A DNA stretch of 64,000 bases from Verrucomicrobiota bacterium. Its GTDB lineage: Bacteria; Verrucomicrobiota; Verrucomicrobiia; Limisphaerales; UBA9464. Shown here piece after piece: positions 20,454 through 37,744 of the stretch. The notes under the pieces are model-generated. The model saw only the letters and a program-made list of their open reading frames with translations, did no database searches and was not told the DNA's origin. The first letter of the stretch is position 1. Every line of letters begins with the position of its first letter. Position numbers and translations under genes: made by a program. The DNA is taken from the NCBI GenBank assembly GCA_016871805.1, contig VHCG01000002.1, forward strand, positions 1 through 64,000, read 5' to 3'.

Positions 20454-21137
20454 TCAATCTGTCGTGAGCGCCCTGAGGTTCGTCTGCAGCTCGAGGGCCA
20501 GACGGTTCCGCTCCGCTTCGTCGAGGTCCGGGGGAATCTGCATCACCGGGCCGACCCGGATGTGACAGCGTCCGAAGGGCAGCGGGATGAGGAAGCCGTC
20601 CCAGCTCCTGAGCTGGAGCCTCCGGGTGAGGTGGTAGGAGATTGGCAGGATGGGGACGCCGGTATGCTGGGCGAGGGCGATGACGCCAGGCTTGACCTCA
20701 TAGCGGGGACCCCGGGGTCCATCGGGAGTGACGGCCAGGTCGTAGCCGCGTCGGGCCAGTGCGACCATCTCCACCAGGGCTTGGGCACCCCGTCGGCTGG
20801 AGGAGCCCCGGACCGCGACAGCGCCCAACAGTTCCAAGACGCGTGCGGCAATGGCTCCATCACGGCTCGCGCTCGCCACCGAGGCGAGGCGTCGTCGGCC
20901 CTGCGATGGATCCCCGAGGATGTGCCGGTACAGCTCCGGGGCGAGCAGCTGGCGGTTGTGCCAGACGGCGAAGATGACGGGGCGACTCGACTGCGGCTGG
21001 ATCAATCCCGTCGGATCCTCGAGGTGCCACTGGATCGTGGCGCTGGCGAGCCGGGCGACGGACCAGGCGGCCCGGGCCGCAAGGCGCCCCCCGAAGGTTG
21101 GGGCATGGGGGCGGGACGGAGGGGATGCGGTCGACAT
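20454..21137 (-). CDS. DUF374 / lysophospholipid acyltransferase-like protein
   Basis: Predicted acyltransferase of the LpxL/PlsC superfamily, 227 residues, inner-membrane associated. The DUF374 pattern is clear: VIFAVWHNRQLL (the HxxxxD-like position reads HNRQLL), the SASRDG motif, AVRGSSSRRG and TPDGPRGPRYEVKPG. Such genes often accompany lipid A/Kdo genes, implying a role in outer-membrane lipid acylation (family knowledge). It is the last gene of the terC-exoD-recJ-ruvA operon, 45 bp after ruvA. Confidence 0.85.
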   Translation of the reverse strand: MSTASPPSRPHAPTFGGRLAARAAWSVARLASATIQWHLEDPTGLIQPQSSRPVIFAVWHNRQLLAPELYRHILGDPSQGRRRLASVASASRDGAIAARVLELLGAVAVRGSSSRRGAQALVEMVALARRGYDLAVTPDGPRGPRYEVKPGVIALAQHTGVPILPISYHLTRRLQLRSWDGFLIPLPFGRCHIRVGPVMQIPPDLDEAERNRLALELQTNLRALTTD

Positions 21138-21182
21138 GGTTCCGGGAGGACGGGAAATCCGGGGCGGGGAGGACGGGGTCTT

Positions 21183-21797
21183 TCAGGCACCCCTCTTGAG
21201 ACAGGCCCTGACGAGTTGTTCCACGGATGCCGACTCGCCGAGGAGGCTCATCGCGCCACGGACGGACGTGGTGGCGTCGGCGGCCTTGAATCCCAGGGCC
21301 ACGAGCGCCGCGACGGCGTCCTGGAGTGTCGTGCCGTCGCTCGGGGTGTTCGGGTTCGCGACGCCGGAGGCGCCGGGTGCTCCGGGCGCGAGGCCGCCCA
21401 GCTTGTCCTTGAGTTCGACCACAATCCGTTCGGCCGTCTTGCGGCCGACGCCGGAGATGCTGGAGAGCGACTTGATGTCGCCGGAGGTCACGGCGGCCTG
21501 GAAGGCGCCCACGCTGAGTCTGCTGAGGACGTTGAGGGCGAGCTTCGGTCCGATGCCGGAGACGGTGTGGACGAGCAGACGGAAGAGGTCGCGTTCCGCA
21601 GCGGTCATGAAGCCGAAAAGGATGTGGGCATCCTCTCGGACCGCCAGGTGGGTGAGGATCCGGACCTCCTGTCCGACCGGCGGCAGCCGGTCGAATGACG
21701 ACAGCGGGATCAGCACCTCGTAGCCGACACCGTTGACATCGAGCGTGATCACCGACGGGAGGGCCTCGGTCAGCCGGCCATGGAGGAATGCGATCAT
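21183..21797 (-). CDS. ruvA: Holliday junction branch-migration protein RuvA
   Basis: RuvA binds four-way DNA junctions and loads the RuvB motor during recombination. The 204-residue protein starts at ATG 21797 (MIAFLHGRL); the upstream listed start is not conserved. The OB-fold N-terminal domain has the LDVNGVGYEVLIP strand. Two helix-hairpin-helix motifs follow: HTVSGIGPKLALNVLS and SSISGVGRKTAERIVVELKDKL. An acidic flexible linker precedes domain III (LQDAVAALVALGFKAADA). It lies 90 bp downstream of recJ in a recombination operon; ruvB and ruvC are not adjacent. Confidence 0.97.
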   Translation of the reverse strand: MIAFLHGRLTEALPSVITLDVNGVGYEVLIPLSSFDRLPPVGQEVRILTHLAVREDAHILFGFMTAAERDLFRLLVHTVSGIGPKLALNVLSRLSVGAFQAAVTSGDIKSLSSISGVGRKTAERIVVELKDKLGGLAPGAPGASGVANPNTPSDGTTLQDAVAALVALGFKAADATTSVRGAMSLLGESASVEQLVRACLKRGA

Positions 21798-21887
21798 CGG
21801 GCTGGCAAGTGAACCAAGGGGCCAGCGCCCCTGCAAAGCTTCCCGTGCATTGGCGGCGATGGCGTCGCAACGGCTCCGTGTCGCGGA

Positions 21888-23630
21888 TCAGCCCGGGATT
21901 GTGACGGGTTCCGAGGGACGCCAGTCGAGGAGCCGCATACGGACCCTGGAGCGGCCCTGGTAGATGTCGAGCTGGGGCACCACCGCCAGATCGAAGGTGC
22001 CACTGGGCAGCGGTTGGCCGGACTCGACCCCGCCCCACCAGAGGACATCGGCCATCGCGGAGCCATCGGTGACCCTCAGCCGCCAGTGCTGCTGGTCCTT
22101 GCCGATCCTCTGGGGCAATCCGACGAGCCGCACGGCAGGAATGATGAATTGGAGCGAGGGATTGCCCTGACCGAAGGGCTCGAGGCGGTTGAGGTCCGTC
22201 ATCCGCTCTGCGGTGAGATCTCGGAGGGGGACGATCGATTCGAGGCGGAGCTCGGGACGCAGGAGCTCGGCGGACAGACGCTCCCGGGCGATCCGGTTGA
22301 GACGCTCCCGGAACCGGTCGAGACGGTCGGCCTGGATCGTGACACCCGCGGCCATCGCATGGCCGCCGTGCTTCTCGAGAAGGTCGGCACAGTCCCGGAG
22401 GGCCTCGGCAAGGTCGAACCCCGGCACGCTCCGGCCGGAGCCACGCCAGAACTGCTGGTCGGCCCCAAGGATCAGGGTGGGCCGGTGGAACTCCCGCATC
22501 ACCCGGGCCGCCACGATGCCCACCACCCCGATGTGCCAGTCGCCGGAACCCTCGACGATCACGAAGTCGCGGTCGGGATCGAACCGCGAGCGGACGAGCG
22601 CTACGGCATCGTCCGCCATGCGTCGCTCGATCGCCTGGCGGTCCCGGTTGGTCTCGTCCAGCGCCCGGGCGAGCGGCATGGCCGTGTCGACATCTCCGGC
22701 CAATAGGAGGTTGAGCGCGGACTCGGCGGTCTCCAGTCGTCCGGCTGCGTTGAGACGGGGCCCGAGCTGGAATCCGACCTCATAAACCCCGACCGGCGAC
22801 TTCGTCTGGGCCATCGCCTTGAGCGCCACCAGGCCCGGCCGGGTCGTGGCCTCGAGCCGCTTCAGTCCGGCCGTCACGAGGATCCGGTTCTCCCCGCGGA
22901 TCGGCACGAGGTCGGCGATGGTCGCAAGGGCGACAAGATCGAGTTCCGCCTTCAGGTCCAGATCGAAGAAGCCCTGTTCCCCGAGCTCGCGTCCGCGTCG
23001 CAACACGGCGTGGAGCAGCTTGAAGGCCAGCGCCGCCGAGCAGAGCGACCTCGGACTGGTGGGACCGTCGGGACCCCGCTGGGGATTCACGATGGCATGG
23101 GCCGGTGGCGCCGGATCGGCAAGCTGGTGGTGGTCCACCACGATCACGTCGATGCCCCGCTCGGCCAGCCGGCGGATCTGCTCGGTCGAGGTCGACCCAC
23201 AGTCCACCGCCACCCAGAGGGGCGACTGGAACCGCTCGAGGCAGTTCTCCACCCCCGGAGTGCTGAGCCCGTAGCCCTCCTCCATCCGGTGCGGCAGGTA
23301 GTGGTGGACCGTCCATCCGAGGCGTCCGAGTCCCGTCTTGAGCAGGGTGGTCGAGGTGACGCCGTCGACATCGTAGTCGCCGAAGACGAGCACGGATTCG
23401 CCACGGGTCCTCGCCTCCATCAGCCGCGCAACCGCCCGTTCCATGTCCGGCAGACCGAACGGGTCGGAGAGCAGACGGAGGCGTGGCTCCAGGAAGAGGC
23501 GCGCCGATTCCGGGTCGGCGAGCTCGCGCTGCACGAGGCAGCGGGCGAGGAGGGGGTCGATCTCCAGCGTCGAGGCCAGCCGCCGGCACGCCTCCGGATC
23601 GGGCTCGGCGATCGTCCAGCGACACCTCAT
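21888..23630 (-). CDS. recJ: Single-stranded-DNA-specific exonuclease RecJ
   Basis: 5'-3' exonuclease of the DHH phosphoesterase family, 580 residues from ATG 23630. The listed longer ORF runs into exoD. DHH-domain motifs are VFGDYDVDGVTSTTLL, WVAVDCGST and IDVIVVDHHQLAD. The DHHA1 domain shows GSGDWHIGVVGIVAARV and EKHGGHAMAAGVTI, and an OB-like C-terminal part follows (RLEPFGQGNPSLQF). Metal ligands Asp, His and His are intact. The start codon overlaps the exoD-like stop by 4 bp (ATGA), which supports this start and translational coupling. Confidence 0.96.
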   Translation of the reverse strand: MRCRWTIAEPDPEACRRLASTLEIDPLLARCLVQRELADPESARLFLEPRLRLLSDPFGLPDMERAVARLMEARTRGESVLVFGDYDVDGVTSTTLLKTGLGRLGWTVHHYLPHRMEEGYGLSTPGVENCLERFQSPLWVAVDCGSTSTEQIRRLAERGIDVIVVDHHQLADPAPPAHAIVNPQRGPDGPTSPRSLCSAALAFKLLHAVLRRGRELGEQGFFDLDLKAELDLVALATIADLVPIRGENRILVTAGLKRLEATTRPGLVALKAMAQTKSPVGVYEVGFQLGPRLNAAGRLETAESALNLLLAGDVDTAMPLARALDETNRDRQAIERRMADDAVALVRSRFDPDRDFVIVEGSGDWHIGVVGIVAARVMREFHRPTLILGADQQFWRGSGRSVPGFDLAEALRDCADLLEKHGGHAMAAGVTIQADRLDRFRERLNRIARERLSAELLRPELRLESIVPLRDLTAERMTDLNRLEPFGQGNPSLQFIIPAVRLVGLPQRIGKDQQHWRLRVTDGSAMADVLWWGGVESGQPLPSGTFDLAVVPQLDIYQGRSRVRMRLLDWRPSEPVTIPG

Positions 23631-26907: not shown

Positions 26908-27139
26908 GGCTTTGGAATTCTGCAGCGAGATGACGTCACGGACACCGGGCATGATCTGGCGTAATGAACACGCCGGGGCACGCCGCGACATCCATGGGAA
27001 GAATTCGAGCACCTCACGTGCCTTCTCAGGAACGAGAAGTGCACCTGGGTCGTGCCTTTGGAAAACTCCTTGGTCGGCAACCGCTCGGGCCTATTCTTCG
27101 GGGCGGCCCGAGCAGGGCCTACCGTTGTCACTCCGCACC

Positions 27140-27982
27140 ATGCGACCGCTCCAGAATTCCCAGTCCGTCCATCGAGCCTTCACCCTCATCGAGCTGCTCG
27201 TCGTCATCGCCATCATTGCGATCCTCGCTGGCATGCTCCTTCCGGCCCTCGGCAAGGCGAAAACCAAGGCGCAGGGCATCGCCTGCATGAGCAACCTCAA
27301 GCAGCTGCAGCTCGCTCATATCATGTATCCCAATGACCACAACGACCGGCTCACCGCCCCGGGCAACTCCCGGGACGAGCCCTACCAGTGGGTCGGAGGC
27401 TGGCTGGGATGGCCCGGACCGTTCCCAAGCGACAACACTAACCTCCAGATGCTCATGGACGAGAAGTTTTCCAAGTTCGTCCCCTATCTCGGCACGCCGG
27501 CCGTCTATAAGTGCCCGGCGGACGTCAGTCAGGTGCGCCTTGGCTCCAAAAAGTTCCCCCGCGTCCGCAGCATGGGCATGAGCCAGGCCATGGGCGGTCC
27601 TGGGGAATGGCTGCCGCCGGGAGGATCGATGGTGGCAAACCAGAAGACCTACAAGACCTTCTACAAAAACTCGGATCTCGCGGCGGTCGGCCCCAGCCGG
27701 CTCTGGGTGCTGCTCGACGAACATCCCGATAGCATCAACGCAGGCGGCTTCGCCAACACCATGGTCGAGAACCCGACCCAGGCACGGATCGTCGACTACC
27801 CGGCGTCCTACCACAACAAGGCGGCGGGCATCTCCTTTGCCGATGGTCATGCCGAGATCCGCAAGTGGATCGATGGACGGACGGTCGTCGGGGTGAAGTT
27901 CTACGAGATGCCGCTCAACGTGGCGTCCCCGAACAACCGGGACATGATCTGGTTGTCGGAGCGGACGTCCGTGAAGAACTAG
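27140..27982 (+). CDS. H-X9-DG-type pseudopilin (prepilin N-terminal domain protein)
   Basis: Exported pseudopilin of 280 residues from ATG 27140. The prepilin peptidase site lies in HRAFTLIELLVVIAIIAILAGMLLPAL. The C-terminal region has the conserved NKAAGISFADGHAEIRKW segment, a His-to-DG spacing typical of the H-X9-DG domain found in large paralogous families of Verrucomicrobiota and Planctomycetota. Two Cys residues (IACMSNLKQLQ and YKCPADVS) may form a disulfide. Function of these secreted proteins is unknown. It is monocistronic, followed by a repeat-rich intergenic region. Confidence 0.9.
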   Translation: MRPLQNSQSVHRAFTLIELLVVIAIIAILAGMLLPALGKAKTKAQGIACMSNLKQLQLAHIMYPNDHNDRLTAPGNSRDEPYQWVGGWLGWPGPFPSDNTNLQMLMDEKFSKFVPYLGTPAVYKCPADVSQVRLGSKKFPRVRSMGMSQAMGGPGEWLPPGGSMVANQKTYKTFYKNSDLAAVGPSRLWVLLDEHPDSINAGGFANTMVENPTQARIVDYPASYHNKAAGISFADGHAEIRKWIDGRTVVGVKFYEMPLNVASPNNRDMIWLSERTSVKN

Positions 27983-28013
27983 CGGGGGGCGGACCGAGAC
28001 GATTGGAAGGTGG

Positions 28014-28035
28014 GTGATGCAGTGCCCTGCATCAC
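28014..28035 (+). repeat. Dispersed palindromic repeat, copy 3
   Basis: GTGATGCAG-TGCC-CTGCATCAC, identical to copy 2. Here it is embedded in further complementarity: a flanking AAGGTGG can pair with CCACCTT (28007-28057) and a TGGGCGC-GGCA-GCGCCCA hairpin follows at 28036-28053, giving alternative folds. Confidence 0.75.
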
Positions 28036-28133
28036 TGGGCGCGGCAGCGCCCACCTTGCGAGGCGGGAGTCAACCTGCGGGGAATGCGGAATGGTGGTGC
28101 CGGGAGGGTCGAGCCGTGGGAGCGGGTGAGGCG

Positions 28134-28867: not shown

Positions 28868-30097
28868 TCAGACCCCGTAGTAGGTCTCGTAGACGTGGGC
28901 CGCGTGCTGGCGCGACTCCTGCCAGGACCCCGGGTGTTGGAGGTATCGATCCGGGCTGAGGCTGCGCACGTACGGGCTGGGATCCGGATTGAAGAGGGAT
29001 TCAACGAGGAGTTTGCCGATGCCGCCGGATCCGGAGATTCCATGGGCATTGCAGCCGCCCGCCATCACAAATCCCGGCACCTGGGAGCTCTCACCGATCA
29101 GGAAGCGGCCGTCCGGAGTGAACGTCGGCCAGCCTTTGCCAACCCAGTTCTTGGGGATCGGTCCCGAGGACGGGAAGAGCGCGGCGAACTGTCGCTCGAA
29201 GGAGTCGAGGACCGGCCAGTCGGTGGTCACAGGCGGCGGGGCTCCCTCGATCGGATAGGTGCGTGGATCCTCGTGCAGCGACCGGGGCTCCCAGCCACCG
29301 AGCAACAGGCCTCCATCACGGACGCGTCCGTACAAGGTCATCTCGGGGATCCGGAAGCAGGGCAGCGTTGGTCTGAGTCCCTCCATGGGCATGCCGACGA
29401 AGTACTCGTGGCGAACCGGGAACACGGGAAGCTCGAGGCCGGCCATCCGTGCGACATGATAGGCATGGGCCCCGGCCGAGTTGACGACGAGCCGGCAGGC
29501 AGCCTGGCCACGATTCGTTCGGATGCCGCAGACCCGTCCATGGCGGAGGTCGATCCCCTCGAGCCGTGTCCCGGTGGCGAACCGGACACCGAGCCGGGCT
29601 GCGTTGTGGCGGTACGACGCCGCGACCGCGCGTGGGGTCATGAAGCCGTCGCTGGGACACCAGAGAATGGCGGTGGAACGGTCGAACCTCATCAGCGGCC
29701 ACAGCCGCCGGGCCTCTGCGGCATCGATCAACTCGGTCACGAGTCCCGCGGCATCCGCCGCGGCCTTCAGCCGATGGAACTCCTCGGCACGTCGTTCGCT
29801 CAGCGCGATGCGGATGGATCCCACCTCGTTCCAGTCCGGTTTGACCTCGGTGGACTGGAGTTCGCGGAAGGTCGCCACGGAGTGCATGGCCAGATGGATC
29901 CGCTCCACCGAGTCCCGGACCTGCCCGCACAGGCCGGCTCCCTGGGAGGTGGTCACGGAACCGACATCGTCTTCGCGTTCCACGACAAGGATGTCGTGAT
30001 GGCCGGCCTTGGCGAGGGCGTAGGCGCATCCGACACCGACGGCACCGCCGCCGACGATGACGATTTCGGAATCGGTGACAGGGGAGGGGTTGATCAT
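28868..30097 (-). CDS. FAD-dependent oxidoreductase, DAO (sarcosine/glycine oxidase-like) family
   Basis: Flavoprotein of 409 residues from ATG 30097, chosen because the dinucleotide-binding motif follows at the usual distance (SEIVIVGGGAVGVGCAYALAKAG, then an acidic residue in VVERE). The DAO fold is supported by SDGFMTPRAVAASYRHNAARLGV, LVVNSAGAHAYHVARMAG and the C-terminal GFVMAGGCNAHGISGSGGIGK. Relatives oxidise sarcosine, dimethylglycine or other secondary amines and D-amino acids, passing electrons to oxygen or ETF. The substrate is not predictable. No glycine-cleavage T-like domain is attached. Confidence 0.88.
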   Translation of the reverse strand: MINPSPVTDSEIVIVGGGAVGVGCAYALAKAGHHDILVVEREDDVGSVTTSQGAGLCGQVRDSVERIHLAMHSVATFRELQSTEVKPDWNEVGSIRIALSERRAEEFHRLKAAADAAGLVTELIDAAEARRLWPLMRFDRSTAILWCPSDGFMTPRAVAASYRHNAARLGVRFATGTRLEGIDLRHGRVCGIRTNRGQAACRLVVNSAGAHAYHVARMAGLELPVFPVRHEYFVGMPMEGLRPTLPCFRIPEMTLYGRVRDGGLLLGGWEPRSLHEDPRTYPIEGAPPPVTTDWPVLDSFERQFAALFPSSGPIPKNWVGKGWPTFTPDGRFLIGESSQVPGFVMAGGCNAHGISGSGGIGKLLVESLFNPDPSPYVRSLSPDRYLQHPGSWQESRQHAAHVYETYYGV

Positions 30098-30310
30098 GGG
30101 AGCGATCCCGGGAGGGTATCGCCCCGGAGTCCTGTGGCGGAAGTTGAGACTTCGCATCGGGGTTCGGGACCCCGGGTCCACGTCGGCTTGGGGCTGGTGG
30201 GCGGGATCTCTTGCCGAGCGTCGGGCATGCGGTTCCGACATTCCCGACCGCTCCTGTGCGGGATCCTGCCGCTGCTGAGGGCCCTCGCCGGGTGTTCCGG
30301 CGGAGGACGG

Positions 30311-32674
30311 TCAGCGGATGGGAGGCGGACCGAGGTGCATTTCTGGCGAACGAAGGAAGGCGAGAAGATCGGAGAGGTCCTGGTGCGTCCACTCCGTCTC
30401 GAGCCCCTCCGGCATCAGGGATCGTCCCGTCGTCCGGAGGACCGCGATCGAGTCCCGGGCAAACGACACGTCCGGTTCCCCGGGGAACCGTAGCGTCACT
30501 CGGTTGGCGGATTCCGAGGCAATCAGTCCCGTCCAACGCCGTCCATCATGGGTGGTGAGCTCCCACGCGGCATAGTCGGGTGCCACCTGTCGGCTTGGGG
30601 CGAGGAGATCCGAGAGCAGGGTCTCGGGGGTCTTGCTGGCGATTCCACCGAGATCGGGTCCAATCCGTTGCCCATGTCCCAGGAGGTAGTGGCAGGCGAG
30701 GCATTGGCGTCGGGCGATTCCAGCGCCCCGTCCTGCATCTCCCTGAAGATCCAGAGCAGGTCTGAATCGGGCGATCACCGCGTCCCGGTCCACCGATGCA
30801 CCGGCGGCGAGTGGAGGGGGCCTCACGGTCGACGGATTCCCGGCGACCGAAGGCCTGGCAAACCACTCCGGACGGTCCCGCCCGGAGCTGCTGGCTGCAG
30901 CAAGGCGGATCCAGCGGTCCGATGTCGACTGGACAATCCGGTCAAGGAGGCGCTCGCGGCGGTGGTCCTCCACTTCGGAGCCGATGGCGAGAGCCGTGGC
31001 GAGTTTCACCCTCGGATCCGGATCCGAGGCGAGTCGGTCGAGCAGGCGTGGGCTGGGTGACGCCGGATCGTTCCGTGGGTTCCACTCAGGATCCTTAGGT
31101 TCGGCGAGGATCCATGCCACCTGTTCCCGGATCCGCGGGTGGGAATCGCGACCCGCGTCGTCGAGATCCTTCCGGGAAAGGAGTCCAAGTTGCGCGGCGA
31201 TCCTCAGGGCCTGGGCGCGTGTCTCGGGGCGGGCATCCGACCGGATGAGCCGGCGCAGGTCGGGCCCGACGGTCTGGTCGTCTCGCGTGACCAGCAGCCG
31301 ATGGACCGTGTCCCGTGTCCAGCCGTTCGGTGATTCCAGGCGGCGAACCCAGGAGCGGGCGTCGAGGAGGGCCAGATCCTCGTGCCGCATCAGGGGTTTA
31401 CCGGCCCTTCGGATCCTCCACAGGCGCCCATGCCTGTGTCCTGTGGCCCAGTCGACCTGCGCCCGCATCTCTGTCGCCACCCATGCAGGATGCTCCACGA
31501 ATCGGCGGTAGAAGTCGGCGACGTACAGGGCACCGTCGGGGCCGGTGGCCACGTTGACCGGGTGGAACCAGGGGTCGGTGCTTGCAAGGAATTCGGTGCC
31601 GTCGGGCTCCCGCCGTTCCGCGCGGAAGGTGGATCCCTCGGGAACCAGCACTCTCCGATGGACCAGGTTGCGCAGGCTCTCCGAGACGAAGGCGTTGCCC
31701 GAGTACCCGGGCCCGAGCGTCGGGCTTCGGAGGAGGTGCAGTCCGGAGAGCGCGTTGAAGTGGCTCGCCGATTCGTTGTTGAACACCAGGGGCGGGGGGG
31801 TCCTTGGAAACACCTGTCCTACATCCCCGGATGGCAGGCAATCGAGGAGGACGTCCTGTCCCGCGGTCGTCGTCTGCCGTTCTAGGAAGTGGTCCGGGAA
31901 CACCTCGTGCCGCAGTGGGATGGTGTTCCACGACAGGAACCGGTTCCCCCAGTCGTCCCGCGCGAGACCGAACTGGCTCCTGCCCGCGAGGGTCTCGAAC
32001 CTGCCGGTCCCGGGCTGGAATCGGAAGTCCCGACCTCGGAGCGACCGCGGTTGGAGTCGGGTTGTCCGTTCGGCTTCGGGAAGGTCCTCGACCCGCACCC
32101 ACTGGTGGTCGCGGAGGATCTCGATCGCTCGCAACTCCCCATCGCTCCGTCCGTTCGCCCCGTGGACCCAGCCATCGAGCCCCCACATCAGCCCGTTGAC
32201 CCGCAGTTGGGGATTTCCAGGACGGAATCCGGTGAAAAGGACATGGCGTTCCTCCGCCCGGCCATCGCCGTCGTTGTCTTTCAGGAAGAGGAGTTCCGGT
32301 GCCGCCGTGACCAGAACCCCACCCGACCACGGCAGCACCGAGGTTGGAAAGGGCAGTCCTTCGGCGAACACGGTGACCTGTTCCCAGTGGCCATCCTGGT
32401 TCCGGTCCTCCAGTTGACGGATCCTTCCCCCAGACTCCGAGTTCGGGTAGTCCCGCATCTCCACCACGAAAAGACGTCCCGACTCGTCCCACGCCATGGC
32501 GACCGGGCTCTCGACATCGGGCTCTGAAGCGACGGGCTCGACGACAAGTCCGGGGTCCGCGAGACGGAACGTCTTGAGCTCTTCGTCGGGCGACAGCGGT
32601 CCTGCCAGGAGGCCGTGGACAAGCGTGCCGGCGACCAGCAGCACTCGGAGTGGCCGGGAGGCGACGGAGGACAT
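30311..32674 (-). CDS. PVC-type membrane-bound dehydrogenase/HEAT/cytochrome c protein
   Basis: Exported 787-residue protein with a signal peptide ([16 protein letters not shown]). The first about 400 residues form a PQQ-dehydrogenase-like propeller typical of PVC membrane-bound dehydrogenases ([46 protein letters not shown]-like segments). Helical HEAT-like repeats follow (about 440-600). A C-terminal cytochrome c domain carries the single haem motif CLACH, with [25 protein letters not shown] and a probable axial Met in RSLMPEGLE. These proteins are abundant and specific to Planctomycetota/Verrucomicrobiota; the substrate is unknown. Confidence 0.88.
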
Positions 32675-32827: not shown

Positions 32828-34354
32828 ATGTCTCCGTCCTGGGCCGTGCTGCTGTCCCTCGCCTTCCTCCGGTCGCGTGGGTGCCATGGGTGCCGTCTTT
32901 CGCTCCGTTGGTGGCTCATTCCGGGACTGGCCCTTCTTTCGCTGTCTGGTGTGCTTTTCGCCGACGGGCCGGGACCGCTGCCGCGACTGCAGGCCAGCCG
33001 CAACGGAAGGTTTCTCGTCACGGACCAGGGGCAGCCCTTCCTCTGGCTGGGGGACACCGCCTGGGAACTCTTCCATCGCCTCAACCGCGAGGAGGCGGAG
33101 GTATACCTCTCCAACCGCGCGGCGCTGGGGTTCAATGTCATCCAGGCCGTCGCGCTCGCCGAGCTGGACGGACTCCATGTCCCCAACGCCTACGGGCATC
33201 GTCCGCTCCACGACCTCGATCCCTCGCGTCCCAACGAGGAGTACTTCCGGCATGTCGACTGGATCGTGAACCGGGCCAACGCCCTGGGCCTCTATGTGGG
33301 GTTTCTCCCGACCTGGGGTGACAAGTGGAACAAGGCGTGGGGTGTCGGGCCGGAGGTCTTCACCCCTGCGAATGCCGAGATCTATGGGGAATGGCTGGGA
33401 CGACGCTACCGGGACGCCGGCGTCGTCTGGATCCTGGGTGGGGACCGTCCCATCGACCCCGCCCGGGCGGAGGGGCAGCGAGCGATCCTGAGGGCGATGC
33501 AGACGGGGCTGCGTCGAGGCGACGGCGGGAGACACCTCGTCACTTTCCATCCCGCGGGCGGGACAGGGTCCCTCCAGGTGCTGGGCGACGAGCCCGGGAT
33601 CGACTTCCACATGCGGCAGAACGGACACAATGCCGAGTTCACCGGGCGGTATGATCGGACGCGGGCCGACTATGACCACACGCCGGTGAAGCCGGTGATC
33701 GATGGTGAGCCGATCTACGAGGACCACCCGGTCGGGTTCGACGCCAGGAAGTTCGGGCACAGCAGCGCCAGCGATGTCCGGCGTCCGCTGTATTGGGATC
33801 TGTTCGGCGGGGCGTTCGGGCATACCTATGGGCACCACTCCGTGTGGCAGATGTGGGCGCCCGGACGCGATCCCGTGAACCAGCCGCTCCTGCCCTGGAC
33901 CGAGGCCCTCCTGCAGCCTGGGGCCACCCAGATGCGTCATGGTCGGGCCCTCATCGAGTCACGTCCTTTCCTCGACCGGGTGCCGGACGACGGGATCATG
34001 GTGGTGGATCGGGTGCCGACGAGCGTGCCGGGAGCCGGACGCTATCGGTTTGTTGGGACCCGCGATGTCGAGGGAACGTTCGCGATGGTGTACGCGCCGG
34101 TGGGGCGTCCATTCCGGGTCCGCATGGAGGTGATCCGGGGTCCGAAGGTGCGGGCCTGGTGGTTCAATCCCCGCGATGGATCCTCCCAGAGGCTGGGTCG
34201 GGGTCCGCTCCCCAACACCGGCGAACGGGAGTTCATCCCGCCATCGTCGGGCGAGATGCTCGACTGGGTCCTGGTCTTGGATGATGCCGCGAAAGGATAT
34301 CCGCCCCCGGGAACGGCGCCGAGGATCCGTCGGGGTCGTCGGCTCGGACGCTGA
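32828..34354 (+). CDS. Secreted glycoside hydrolase of GH140/DUF4038 type
   Basis: Exported 508-residue protein from ATG 32828; a long signal sequence ([24 protein letters not shown]) supports the start. The TIM-barrel DUF4038 domain has [57 protein letters not shown] and [12 protein letters not shown], with candidate catalytic acids in GGDR and DGEP. A C-terminal putative collagen-binding-like beta domain is present ([17 protein letters not shown]). GH140 members are apiosidases acting on rhamnogalacturonan II, but related DUF4038 proteins have other specificities. It is divergent from the PVC cytochrome gene. Confidence 0.85.
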
Positions 34355-34377: not shown

Positions 34378-35340
34378 TCAGCCCGGTGGATGCTGCAGCT
34401 CGAGGGCCCGTTCGTGCTGCCATGGAAAGGCGGACTCCGGGTCCCACACGATCGCGGGATCGCGGCCGCCTGCGGTGGGTGTCGATGGCATCGCGTCGAC
34501 CTCCTCCATCACCGCGAGGTCGCAGGACACCAGGTGCGGCGGCCAATCCGTCGGACCGGCCTCCGAGAAATCACGTCCCTGGTTCAGGACCACGGCTCCG
34601 GGTTCGACGCAGGCGCCTGTCCGGGGATCCAGGGAGAACCATCCGGTGACCGGACAGAACACGGAAGCCCAGCTGTGGTAGGCGTTCCCGGTGTCGTCTG
34701 CCGTCCGGTAGCCCGACACCATCCGGGCGGGGAGACCGACGGACCGGAGACAGGCCAGGACCACGTGGGCGAGGTCCTCGCGCCCGCCCATCCGGTCCTT
34801 CCAAAGACCCTCGAGCGGCGTCGGCAATCCATCCAGCCCTCGCTGGTGCCTAAAATCCCGGGACACGCGTCGGACCAGGTCGAGGGCGCCCAGCAGCACC
34901 GGGATGCCCGGGATGAAGCTCGTGCGGGCGTAGTCGGCCCAGCGGGTCGAGGGACGCACCCAGGGCGAGGCATAGAGGTGCTGCTGGATCTCGGTCCATC
35001 GCGGCGCGGCGAATCCGGAGAGGAGGGTGGTGACCGATTCCCAGGGCGGTGAGAGGGCCGGCAGCAGCGAGGTGCCCGGACCGGTTTGGATCCAGGTTTC
35101 CGCGTGGCACTCGATGCGGTCGACGCCTCCAGGGAATCCGAGACGACACGACCGGTTCCCGCCGAAGTCGACCCCGCCGCGGTTCCGGGCGGGGGTGGGG
35201 TCTACGCGGAGGCGGAAGCCCAGCCGCTGCTGGTCGCGGAGGGTTCTCGGTGTCAGACGAATCCCGATGGTGTTGCCCCGTCGGAACCCCGGGGTCTCGA
35301 GGATCAGGCGATGAAGGATGCGTCGGATTCGGGGCGGCAT
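34378..35340 (-). CDS. Transglutaminase-like protein lacking the catalytic cysteine
   Basis: The 320-residue protein follows the COG1305 transglutaminase-like layout: an N-terminal beta domain and a cysteine-protease-like core. The motif normally read G-x-C-Q-D-x-A-H appears as GGREDLAH, so the nucleophile Cys is replaced by Arg187. The downstream LACLRSVGLPARMVSGY, His222 in AYHSWASVF and Asp238 in FSLDPRTG are preserved. It is therefore probably a non-catalytic member. Its start lies 4 bp after the stop of the ATP-grasp/alpha-E gene, the classical partner of this family. Confidence 0.85.
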   Translation of the reverse strand: MPPRIRRILHRLILETPGFRRGNTIGIRLTPRTLRDQQRLGFRLRVDPTPARNRGGVDFGGNRSCRLGFPGGVDRIECHAETWIQTGPGTSLLPALSPPWESVTTLLSGFAAPRWTEIQQHLYASPWVRPSTRWADYARTSFIPGIPVLLGALDLVRRVSRDFRHQRGLDGLPTPLEGLWKDRMGGREDLAHVVLACLRSVGLPARMVSGYRTADDTGNAYHSWASVFCPVTGWFSLDPRTGACVEPGAVVLNQGRDFSEAGPTDWPPHLVSCDLAVMEEVDAMPSTPTAGGRDPAIVWDPESAFPWQHERALELQHPPG

Positions 35341-35344
35341 GGGG

Positions 35345-37744
35345 TCAGTGCGGCAGGTCGTTGAAGTCCTCGCAGAAGTGTTCGTGGGCGCGTCGGATCC
35401 GGATGACGATCCGTCGGAGAACCTCCTCCGTGCAGGAAAAGGCGCCGAGGGGATCGTTCCCGGCGCGCTCGGCCTCGATCACCGCCTCGGTGAGGCCTTG
35501 TCGGGACCGGTTCAGGAACAGACCCGGGCTGTGGCCCTGGACCTGGTCCAGCGCGTCCCGGATCCGGATCAGCCGTTGCCGCAGCGAACCGGGCTCGGTC
35601 GGATCCCAGACCCGGTCGACCACGCCGCCGCCGTCCACGCCGGCGAACACCGACCAATGGGGTCGCGAGGTTCCGATCCCCAGGATCGAGTCCACGGCCC
35701 ATCCGAGCCCGGGCAGCGGATGCGAGGGTCTCGAAAGAAGATCCATCAGGAGGGTCCCGGCATGGAGCGTCTGGTCCCAGTGCCACCCCAGGGCCAGGAA
35801 GCGTCCGGCATCGTCCTCGTCGAAGCCTGTGAGCAACAGACCCCGCAGACCCTCAAGCAGCACCGAAAGGTCCTCGAGCCCTTCCCGACCCGTTGATTCA
35901 AGGATCTGGTGGAGTCGACGCCGGAGGCGTTCCACCCGATCTCGGAGTCCGGGCGGAAGGTGGGGCTGACACGGCCCGATCTGGTCGATCAGCGGGTCGC
36001 ATAGTGTCTGGAACCAGTCCGGTGGGATCCCCGTCGTGGGACGCGCCTCCCGCAGTCCGGCCCCAGAGCCCCGTTCTCCAAGGGGATCCTCACCATGGAG
36101 GCCCAGATTCCGGAGCAGGTGGGTCGACAGGATCCGCACCACGGGATCCCGCACCAGGGTCACCCCATCCCGGGACCGGACGAGGATCGCCTCGATGCAG
36201 CGGCATCCGTGATCGCATCGCGACCACGTGCGTCCCAGACGCACCAACCGGTCTGCCATGCCGAGGGACAGGAGCGGCTCGCGGCGGGGTCGAGGGAGCC
36301 GGGTCCGCGTCTCCGGAGTCGAAGCGCCTCCCGGACCGGTTCCGGTGTCGATCCAGACTGTCTTGACCGGAGGTGTTCCCGAGTGTGCCGGATCCCGCAT
36401 CGACCCGGGCCCGTAGACATGGGCGAGGCCTCCGGGCAGGACCTGCCAGCCGGTCGAGGTCGCGACGGTGAACAGCCGCAGCACGGTCGGCTGGCCGAGG
36501 GGCCCGTCCGAGGTCGACCAGGGCGCATGGGCGGGTTGGATCGGTTCACGGGCCACCCAGCATTCGGGCCGCAGGTTGATGTGGCGACGGATCCGGACCT
36601 CGTCGTCGGATCTGATGGGCTGGCGGGGTCCGAGGAATGCCGCCCGCCCTGCGTGCACCGACTCCACCTCCAGCCGGCCGAGGTTGTCCTCGACCTGTCG
36701 CAGCGATTGGCGGTCGCCACACCACCAGGTCGGGAACGAGCGGAGTCGGAGGTCCTCTCCCAGCAGGTGCTGGCAGAGACGGGGCAGGAAGGGGGTCCAA
36801 GCGGGACTCTCCACGAGGTCCACCCCCGGAGGATTGATCCGTTGAAGGGTCGCGTGGGTCACGCTGTCGGACAGATCGATGCGCCTCGGGTCCCGCGTCG
36901 CACCCACGCTCCCGTCGCCGTTGCGATGCCGGGCCTGGATCAGGAGCTCGATGCGTTCGAGCCCCGAGGGGGTCCTCCGATGCAGATGGTCCCCGCGGAC
37001 CCTCAGGTCGGCATCGTCCACGACCCCCCACGACACGCCTCGGGCCATCCATCCGAGGTCCGCCTCGTCGTGGGTTCCCTCGGGCACCAGCAGGGCCCGA
37101 CCCGGCCCCGTCCCTGTATCCCAGGCCCCGCTCAGCGCCGCGGCGAAGCCCAGGGCGGCGTGGGTTCCGAGTCCGTCGAGCACACCCCGGAGGGCCCGGG
37201 CCGACTCGACCAGTCCCATCAGCGCGAGCCCCAGTCCCCCGGGGATTCCGGTGCGGTCCGCAACCACGGTCCAGATGCCGTCGGGGTTCCGGATCAGATC
37301 CGTGGCCTGGAACCGGAGGAGTGGTCCCGGGGTTCCGGTCCGCCCATGGGCCGAGCGTCGGAACCGCGGGTCGGCATAGACGACCCCCGCCGGCAGCCAG
37401 CCCGACTGGATCGATTCCTGTGGGCCGTAGACATCCTGCAGGAGGCGGTCGAGCAGCGCGGCCCTCTGGCAGAGCCCCCTCTCGAGTGACGTCCAGTCCT
37501 GCATCGAAATCACCAGCGGCAGCCGGTCGAGCTGGACGCCCCCATCCGCAGGCGCTGCGAGGTCGCGCCAGATCCGTCCGCCGGAATCCTCCGCCACCAG
37601 CGGCTCGATCCACGCGTAGCCGGGACGGATCCGTCCGCTCTCGCCCCGGATCTCATCCCAGGGCTTCGATGCGAGGATCGATCGGGAATCCGGCTCGGTG
37701 GGGCCGCGGTCGAGAATGGGGGCCGGGCGGGGACAGGGGATCAT
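35345..37744 (-). CDS. Circularly permuted ATP-grasp (type 2) / alpha-E fusion, apparently degenerate
   Basis: The 799-residue protein matches the fused COG2308-COG2307 architecture. The ATP-grasp part (about 1-480) keeps SMQDWTSLERGLCQRAALLDRLLQDVYGPQ, the LGEDLRL...FPTWWCGDRQSLRQV segment and the RRHINLRPECWVA strand. The helical alpha-E part (about 520-799) has CRCIEAILVRSRDG, LLTGFDEDDAGRFLALGWHWDQTLHAG and the C-terminal HEHFCEDF. Expected ATP-grasp motifs look altered: ADRTGIPGGLGLALMGL replaces the usual PSG-x-GYALENR, the RRLDDD region is absent and the LVVK lysine is missing. The family is thought to ligate amino acids or peptides; this member may have lost that activity. Partner gene: the Cys-less transglutaminase. 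Confidence 0.85.
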   Translation of the reverse strand: MIPCPRPAPILDRGPTEPDSRSILASKPWDEIRGESGRIRPGYAWIEPLVAEDSGGRIWRDLAAPADGGVQLDRLPLVISMQDWTSLERGLCQRAALLDRLLQDVYGPQESIQSGWLPAGVVYADPRFRRSAHGRTGTPGPLLRFQATDLIRNPDGIWTVVADRTGIPGGLGLALMGLVESARALRGVLDGLGTHAALGFAAALSGAWDTGTGPGRALLVPEGTHDEADLGWMARGVSWGVVDDADLRVRGDHLHRRTPSGLERIELLIQARHRNGDGSVGATRDPRRIDLSDSVTHATLQRINPPGVDLVESPAWTPFLPRLCQHLLGEDLRLRSFPTWWCGDRQSLRQVEDNLGRLEVESVHAGRAAFLGPRQPIRSDDEVRIRRHINLRPECWVAREPIQPAHAPWSTSDGPLGQPTVLRLFTVATSTGWQVLPGGLAHVYGPGSMRDPAHSGTPPVKTVWIDTGTGPGGASTPETRTRLPRPRREPLLSLGMADRLVRLGRTWSRCDHGCRCIEAILVRSRDGVTLVRDPVVRILSTHLLRNLGLHGEDPLGERGSGAGLREARPTTGIPPDWFQTLCDPLIDQIGPCQPHLPPGLRDRVERLRRRLHQILESTGREGLEDLSVLLEGLRGLLLTGFDEDDAGRFLALGWHWDQTLHAGTLLMDLLSRPSHPLPGLGWAVDSILGIGTSRPHWSVFAGVDGGGVVDRVWDPTEPGSLRQRLIRIRDALDQVQGHSPGLFLNRSRQGLTEAVIEAERAGNDPLGAFSCTEEVLRRIVIRIRRAHEHFCEDFNDLPH

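Follow-up and report, generated by a model that had tools for sequence, protein, structure and literature searches.

Has a gene pair of a predicted ligase system lost its catalytic residues in both proteins and nevertheless been maintained? This question is raised by a 64,000-nt stretch of a Verrucomicrobiota contig (the window), in which two genes lie next to each other on the minus strand with a 4-bp gap. The first (34378–35340, minus strand) encodes a 320-aa transglutaminase-like protein (TG; PF01841/PF08379), and the second (35345–37744, minus strand) a 799-aa fusion of a circularly permuted ATP-grasp with a degenerate alpha-E domain (AG; PF14403/PF04174). The spacing and the fully open frames noticed in the original prediction were both recovered: the two ORFs lie where it had placed them, without a stop or a frameshift across 1119 codons. 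Their GC content by codon position is about that of the neighbouring genes. Promoter and terminator scans gave no signal above chance, and an NCBIfam search yielded no useful match.

The gene pair and its relatives

A neighbourhood of COG2308 ATP-grasp, COG2307 alpha-E and COG1305 transglutaminase genes was reportedly described by Iyer et al. in 2009 as a predicted amidoligase system. The window pair resembles it in domains and gene adjacency, and resembles Verrucomicrobia relatives in having the ATP-grasp and alpha-E parts in fusion form. Unlike that neighbourhood, it lacks the ATP-grasp active-site clusters, the ER motifs and the TG nucleophile, and no other cluster members stand beside it. 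The Anbu operon represents a related form of the neighbourhood (PMC5666114, PMC6376114). Since the ATP-grasp protein of this related operon releases phosphate from ATP (PMC6376114), the normal family can be considered catalytic. Co-expressed Yersinia Anbu-operon proteins displayed no specific Anbu interaction (PMC6376114), which weighs against a joint action of AG and TG. The Anbu variant is not applicable here, because the window's genome (about 91% complete) has no PF00227 match and thus no detected proteasome-fold gene.

In the AG tree, the window protein and its counterpart from a second MAG of the genus (G001; the window's own genome is G000) fall among normal fusions, in a 20-row clade with full support (100/100). 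Their branch, at 7.3 changes per column, is saturated, so that their position within the clade is only approximate. The TG tree, with support of 90/86 or lower, agrees in grouping TG with the partner proteins of these fusions, its branch measuring 3.2. Normal fusions of this clade (type B: G002, G003, G011, G017, G005, G036 and others), including those of the same-genus genomes G002 and G003, are about 33–36% identical to AG in the ATP-grasp part. Nearly all of them retain the RRxDDxxCDPLELR cluster and the alpha-E motifs that AG has lost, and several adjoin a second TG.

The G001 locus comprises the same two genes with the same 4-bp gap and the same flanking genes, and the flanking DNA aligns at about 92%. 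Searches with AG and TG found no match near G001's strength in 320 genomes of the order and none comparable in 388 genomes sampled from the phylum. When 85,462 GTDB species were scanned for two short peptide patterns, which reaches close relatives only, the sole match was the G001 record itself (SYEM01000027.1, Verrucomicrobiales bacterium F1-60-MAGs043). Plasmids contained only distant relatives, none with a match spanning 80% of the query. The degenerate form is therefore known from two MAGs only. In the stretches of relatives that were examined, the SASA and apiosidase genes do not adjoin the pair, and because these flanking genes stand there without it, insertion and relocation are indistinguishable.

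The ATP-grasp/alpha-E protein

AG is a bona fide member of its family by profile search, matching CP_ATPgrasp_2 (PF14403, E 5e-64; 217 bits vs a cut-off of 32) over profile positions 1–373 of 374, as well as CP_ATPgrasp_1 (PF04174). As a reference for motif loss we used 36 normal fusion proteins from the order; with rows about 25–30% identical, the alignment is uncertain through the lost motifs. In AG, RRVDDDFCDPLELR is changed to QARHRNGDGSVGATR, (V/I)VKPAF to EVESVH, with the VVK lysine gone, and the N-R of GYALANR/GYALENR to G-L; the site of the lost RRxDDxxCDPLELR cluster corresponds to codons 263–289 (36878..36958, minus strand). Altogether, AG departs from the consensus at 76 of 155 columns whose conservation across 30 normal fusions reaches 95% or more. 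Asp163, Glu400, Arg423, Gly438–Gly439 and Lys461 (KDTW segment) are kept, and the GGGSKDTW segment is partly retained (KTVW) in both G000 and G001. The alignment thus bears out the claim that the RRLDDD and VVK segments are altered or missing. The parallel claim for PSG-x-GYALENR stands for the arginine, which is replaced by leucine, but not for the glutamate, whose absence is a feature of the clade (PTGxGYALANR): most of its members have Ala there, in a motif conserved elsewhere in the family.

The clade of AG is itself distinguished by PTGxGYALANR (or TLADR; rows L040–L046, L099, L102–L109 and L117–L119) vs PSGxGYALENR in other fusions and in stand-alone proteins. In two fusions of family f30, L102 (G100) and L106 (G101), the VVK lysine is replaced by Glu or Gln, which may mark an independent start of partial ATP-grasp residue loss; the TG of G100 keeps its Cys.

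The C-terminal part of AG (about residues 492–799; 35348..36271, minus strand) is a remnant of the alpha-E helical domain. The window AG gives no Pfam Alpha-E (PF04168) match at a threshold as loose as E<=1, whereas two normal fusions match with E-values of 8.5e-59 and 2.8e-65, and of the ER motifs GRYxER is changed to GRTWSR and RRLER to WHWDQ, so that neither the profile match nor the motifs of an alpha-E domain are present. This loss of signature motifs was absent from the original prediction. In the AlphaFold2 model the C-terminal part is all-helical; the model as a whole is of moderate quality (mean pLDDT 68.9, falling below 50 at residues 271–287, in the lost cluster), and its best Foldseek match is 3n6x (TM 0.74 by target length).

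The sole clear orthologue found, in G001, has likewise lost the VVK lysine, the N-R pair, the ER motifs and the RRxDDxxCDPLELR cluster, so that these losses predate the split of the two lineages. In neither genome does AG carry the motif set of a catalytic circularly permuted ATP-grasp amidoligase. On residue roles assigned by analogy, AG is predicted to be catalytically dead as an ATP-dependent ligase, and without the lost clusters it would be unlikely to release phosphate from ATP. Nucleotide binding may still be possible, because Lys461, Asp163, Arg423, Glu400 and the double glycine are kept.

The transglutaminase-like protein

Both profile search and fold place TG in the transglutaminase-like superfamily: it matches Transglut_core (PF01841, E 5e-12; 46.4 bits vs a cut-off of 23) and Bact_transglu_N, and its AlphaFold2 model (mean pLDDT 80.8) preserves the fold, with the Cytophaga hutchinsonii putative cysteine protease 3isr as the best PDB match (TM 0.70/0.77). 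The fold, the His and the Asp are common to TG, 3isr and Bact_transglu_N/Transglut_core proteins, whereas the nucleophilic Cys of the latter is Arg in the window TG. As had been noticed from the sequence, Arg187 occupies the position of the nucleophile, with His222 and Asp238 still in place. Of 44 aligned rows, 43 have Cys at position 187 and the window alone has Arg, and His222 and Asp238 are invariant among the 44. The window TG accordingly lacks the complete Cys-His-Asp triad of a catalytic transglutaminase-like enzyme. Cys197, considered as a shifted nucleophile, was rejected: its column is variable and all 43 other rows have Cys at 187, so the Cys has not simply been displaced.

Codon 187 (34780..34782, minus strand) is CGC in the window and TGC in G001, a single T-to-C change, and the G001 TG, 90% identical to that of the window, has a complete triad. 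The loss thus amounts to one base and is specific to this genome, unless Arg187 is a draft or consensus error. Since the triad is intact in G001, the pair did not have both losses of old. The proposal of a non-catalytic or re-purposed derivative is thus well supported for AG, with losses common to G001 and a dN/dS of about 0.2, and does not extend to TG beyond this genome.

There are precedents for dead members of such folds. Erythrocyte protein 4.2, structures of which occur among the fold matches of TG, is an inactive transglutaminase homologue having the fold without the catalytic residues, and the TTL-type protein TTLL12 has likewise lost its catalytic residues. Both belong to unrelated lineages and neither is a bacterial ligase/transglutaminase pair; our literature search turned up no account of a dead protein from this bacterial system.

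Selection and possible role of the pair

Both genes are under purifying selection. The dN/dS values for the window vs G001 (Nei–Gojobori; 95% CI by codon bootstrap) are 0.217 (0.153–0.293) for AG and 0.200 (0.125–0.302) for TG, far from 1, and as averages over both lineages since the split they are silent on the time after the Arg187 change. This agrees with the original view that the genes are maintained. Of the flanking genes, apiosidase has 0.154, SASA 0.116 and BNR 0.164; RecJ has 0.233. A second, intact copy, which had been suggested as something to look for in the genome, is present on contig C11, where an intact stand-alone ATP-grasp, a DUF2126-transglutaminase, a normal fusion and a normal TG are encoded. 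The C11 fusion belongs to a clade other than that of AG, and part of a stand-alone ATP-grasp matching the one on C11, at 94% identity, is present in G001.

The reading that we favour, with a probability of roughly 60%, is that the pair consists of a pseudo-ligase AG and a TG that stayed catalytic up to very recent times, and that the intact cluster may have allowed the pair to diverge. An ordinary pair of fusion ATP-grasp/alpha-E and transglutaminase would have become a much-diverged copy. AG would have turned into a pseudo-ligase that has retained its fold and some of the nucleotide-cleft scaffold while losing the residues expected for ATP-dependent acyl-phosphate chemistry as well as the alpha-E ER motifs. 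TG would have kept its triad along the long branch, probably as an ATP-independent amidase, peptidase or cross-linker, and its nucleophile would have been lost only recently, in the window's genome, by the T-to-C change. The survival of the triad on that branch argues that TG catalysis, rather than ligation by AG, may have been the selected activity until recently. If so, AG would most simply be a scaffold or substrate-binding partner, and it is most likely a binding, scaffold or regulatory partner of the co-encoded TG. That the intact second cluster may have freed the pair to change is the parsimonious reading. The residue losses, the G001 triad, the purifying selection, the tree position of AG and the existence of the intact cluster are observed. 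From these we infer that AG has lost its ligase activity, that the TG of G001 is active, what part the second cluster played, and that AG and TG are partners, their joint action being suggested by the adjacency of their genes.

Alternatively, with the intact cluster present, the resident pair might have become a non-catalytic pair that binds the substrate or partner of that cluster and regulates it within one genus, which we consider rather unlikely. It also seems unlikely that the whole pair is now non-catalytic in the window's species and persists purely as two pseudoenzymes (scaffold, inhibitor or sensor), in which Arg187 is a functional change. Arg187 and the motif losses of AG indeed leave no expected catalytic site, and the TG core (residues 171–245) still has a dN/dS of 0.16; however, a value averaged over both lineages cannot reflect selection after Arg187 arose, and the G001 orthologue retains the Cys.

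Early decay in the window's lineage, with Arg187 as the first lesion, is doubtful. All three changes at 95%-conserved columns (TG C187R, TG D260E and AG G287R) fall on the window branch and hint at relaxation, and the dN/dS values of AG and TG are somewhat above those of the flanking genes, but three changes are too few for a test. Moreover, the frames are undisrupted, dN/dS is about 0.2, and the losses in AG are older than the split, with purifying selection acting afterwards. It is improbable that Arg187 reflects a mistake in the assembly or consensus of the MAG or the allele of a minor strain, which would leave a real TG with Cys187 and only AG degenerate: the codons are one base apart and the genome is a draft (124 contigs, 90.8% complete, 1.2% contaminated), yet the surroundings of the site are clean, with an open frame and flanks at ~92% to G001. 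Plain pseudogene decay can be rejected, as both genes are under purifying selection and free of stops and frameshifts.

For the widespread but little understood ATP-grasp/alpha-E/transglutaminase system, a copy that is selected yet predicted to be dead offers a ready-made genetic separation. With an intact cluster in the same cell, it points to a use for the fold and the transglutaminase even where ATP drives no ligation, and TG proteins with and without Cys187 provide a pair for pull-down of the unknown substrate. The degenerate pair is real, selected and unusual, yet it is a narrow variant of a known system, with a reach limited to the two genomes known to carry it.

Three side observations come from the comparison with G001. 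Positions 28868–32674 of the window, with genes for an FAD-dependent oxidoreductase and DUF7133/HEAT/cytochrome c proteins, are missing from the syntenic G001 stretch, where just some 1.1 kb of other DNA separates the counterparts of window positions 32978 and 28842. Two ORFs, at 20860–22038 and 27128–28054 (the latter without a Pfam match), have dN/dS >1 vs G001 and are probably spurious frames. Finally, the AG gene of G001 is split over two contigs, L097 (3371–3786) and L039 (1–416), which share a 416-bp overlap with 96.6% identity, indicating that strains are mixed in this MAG.
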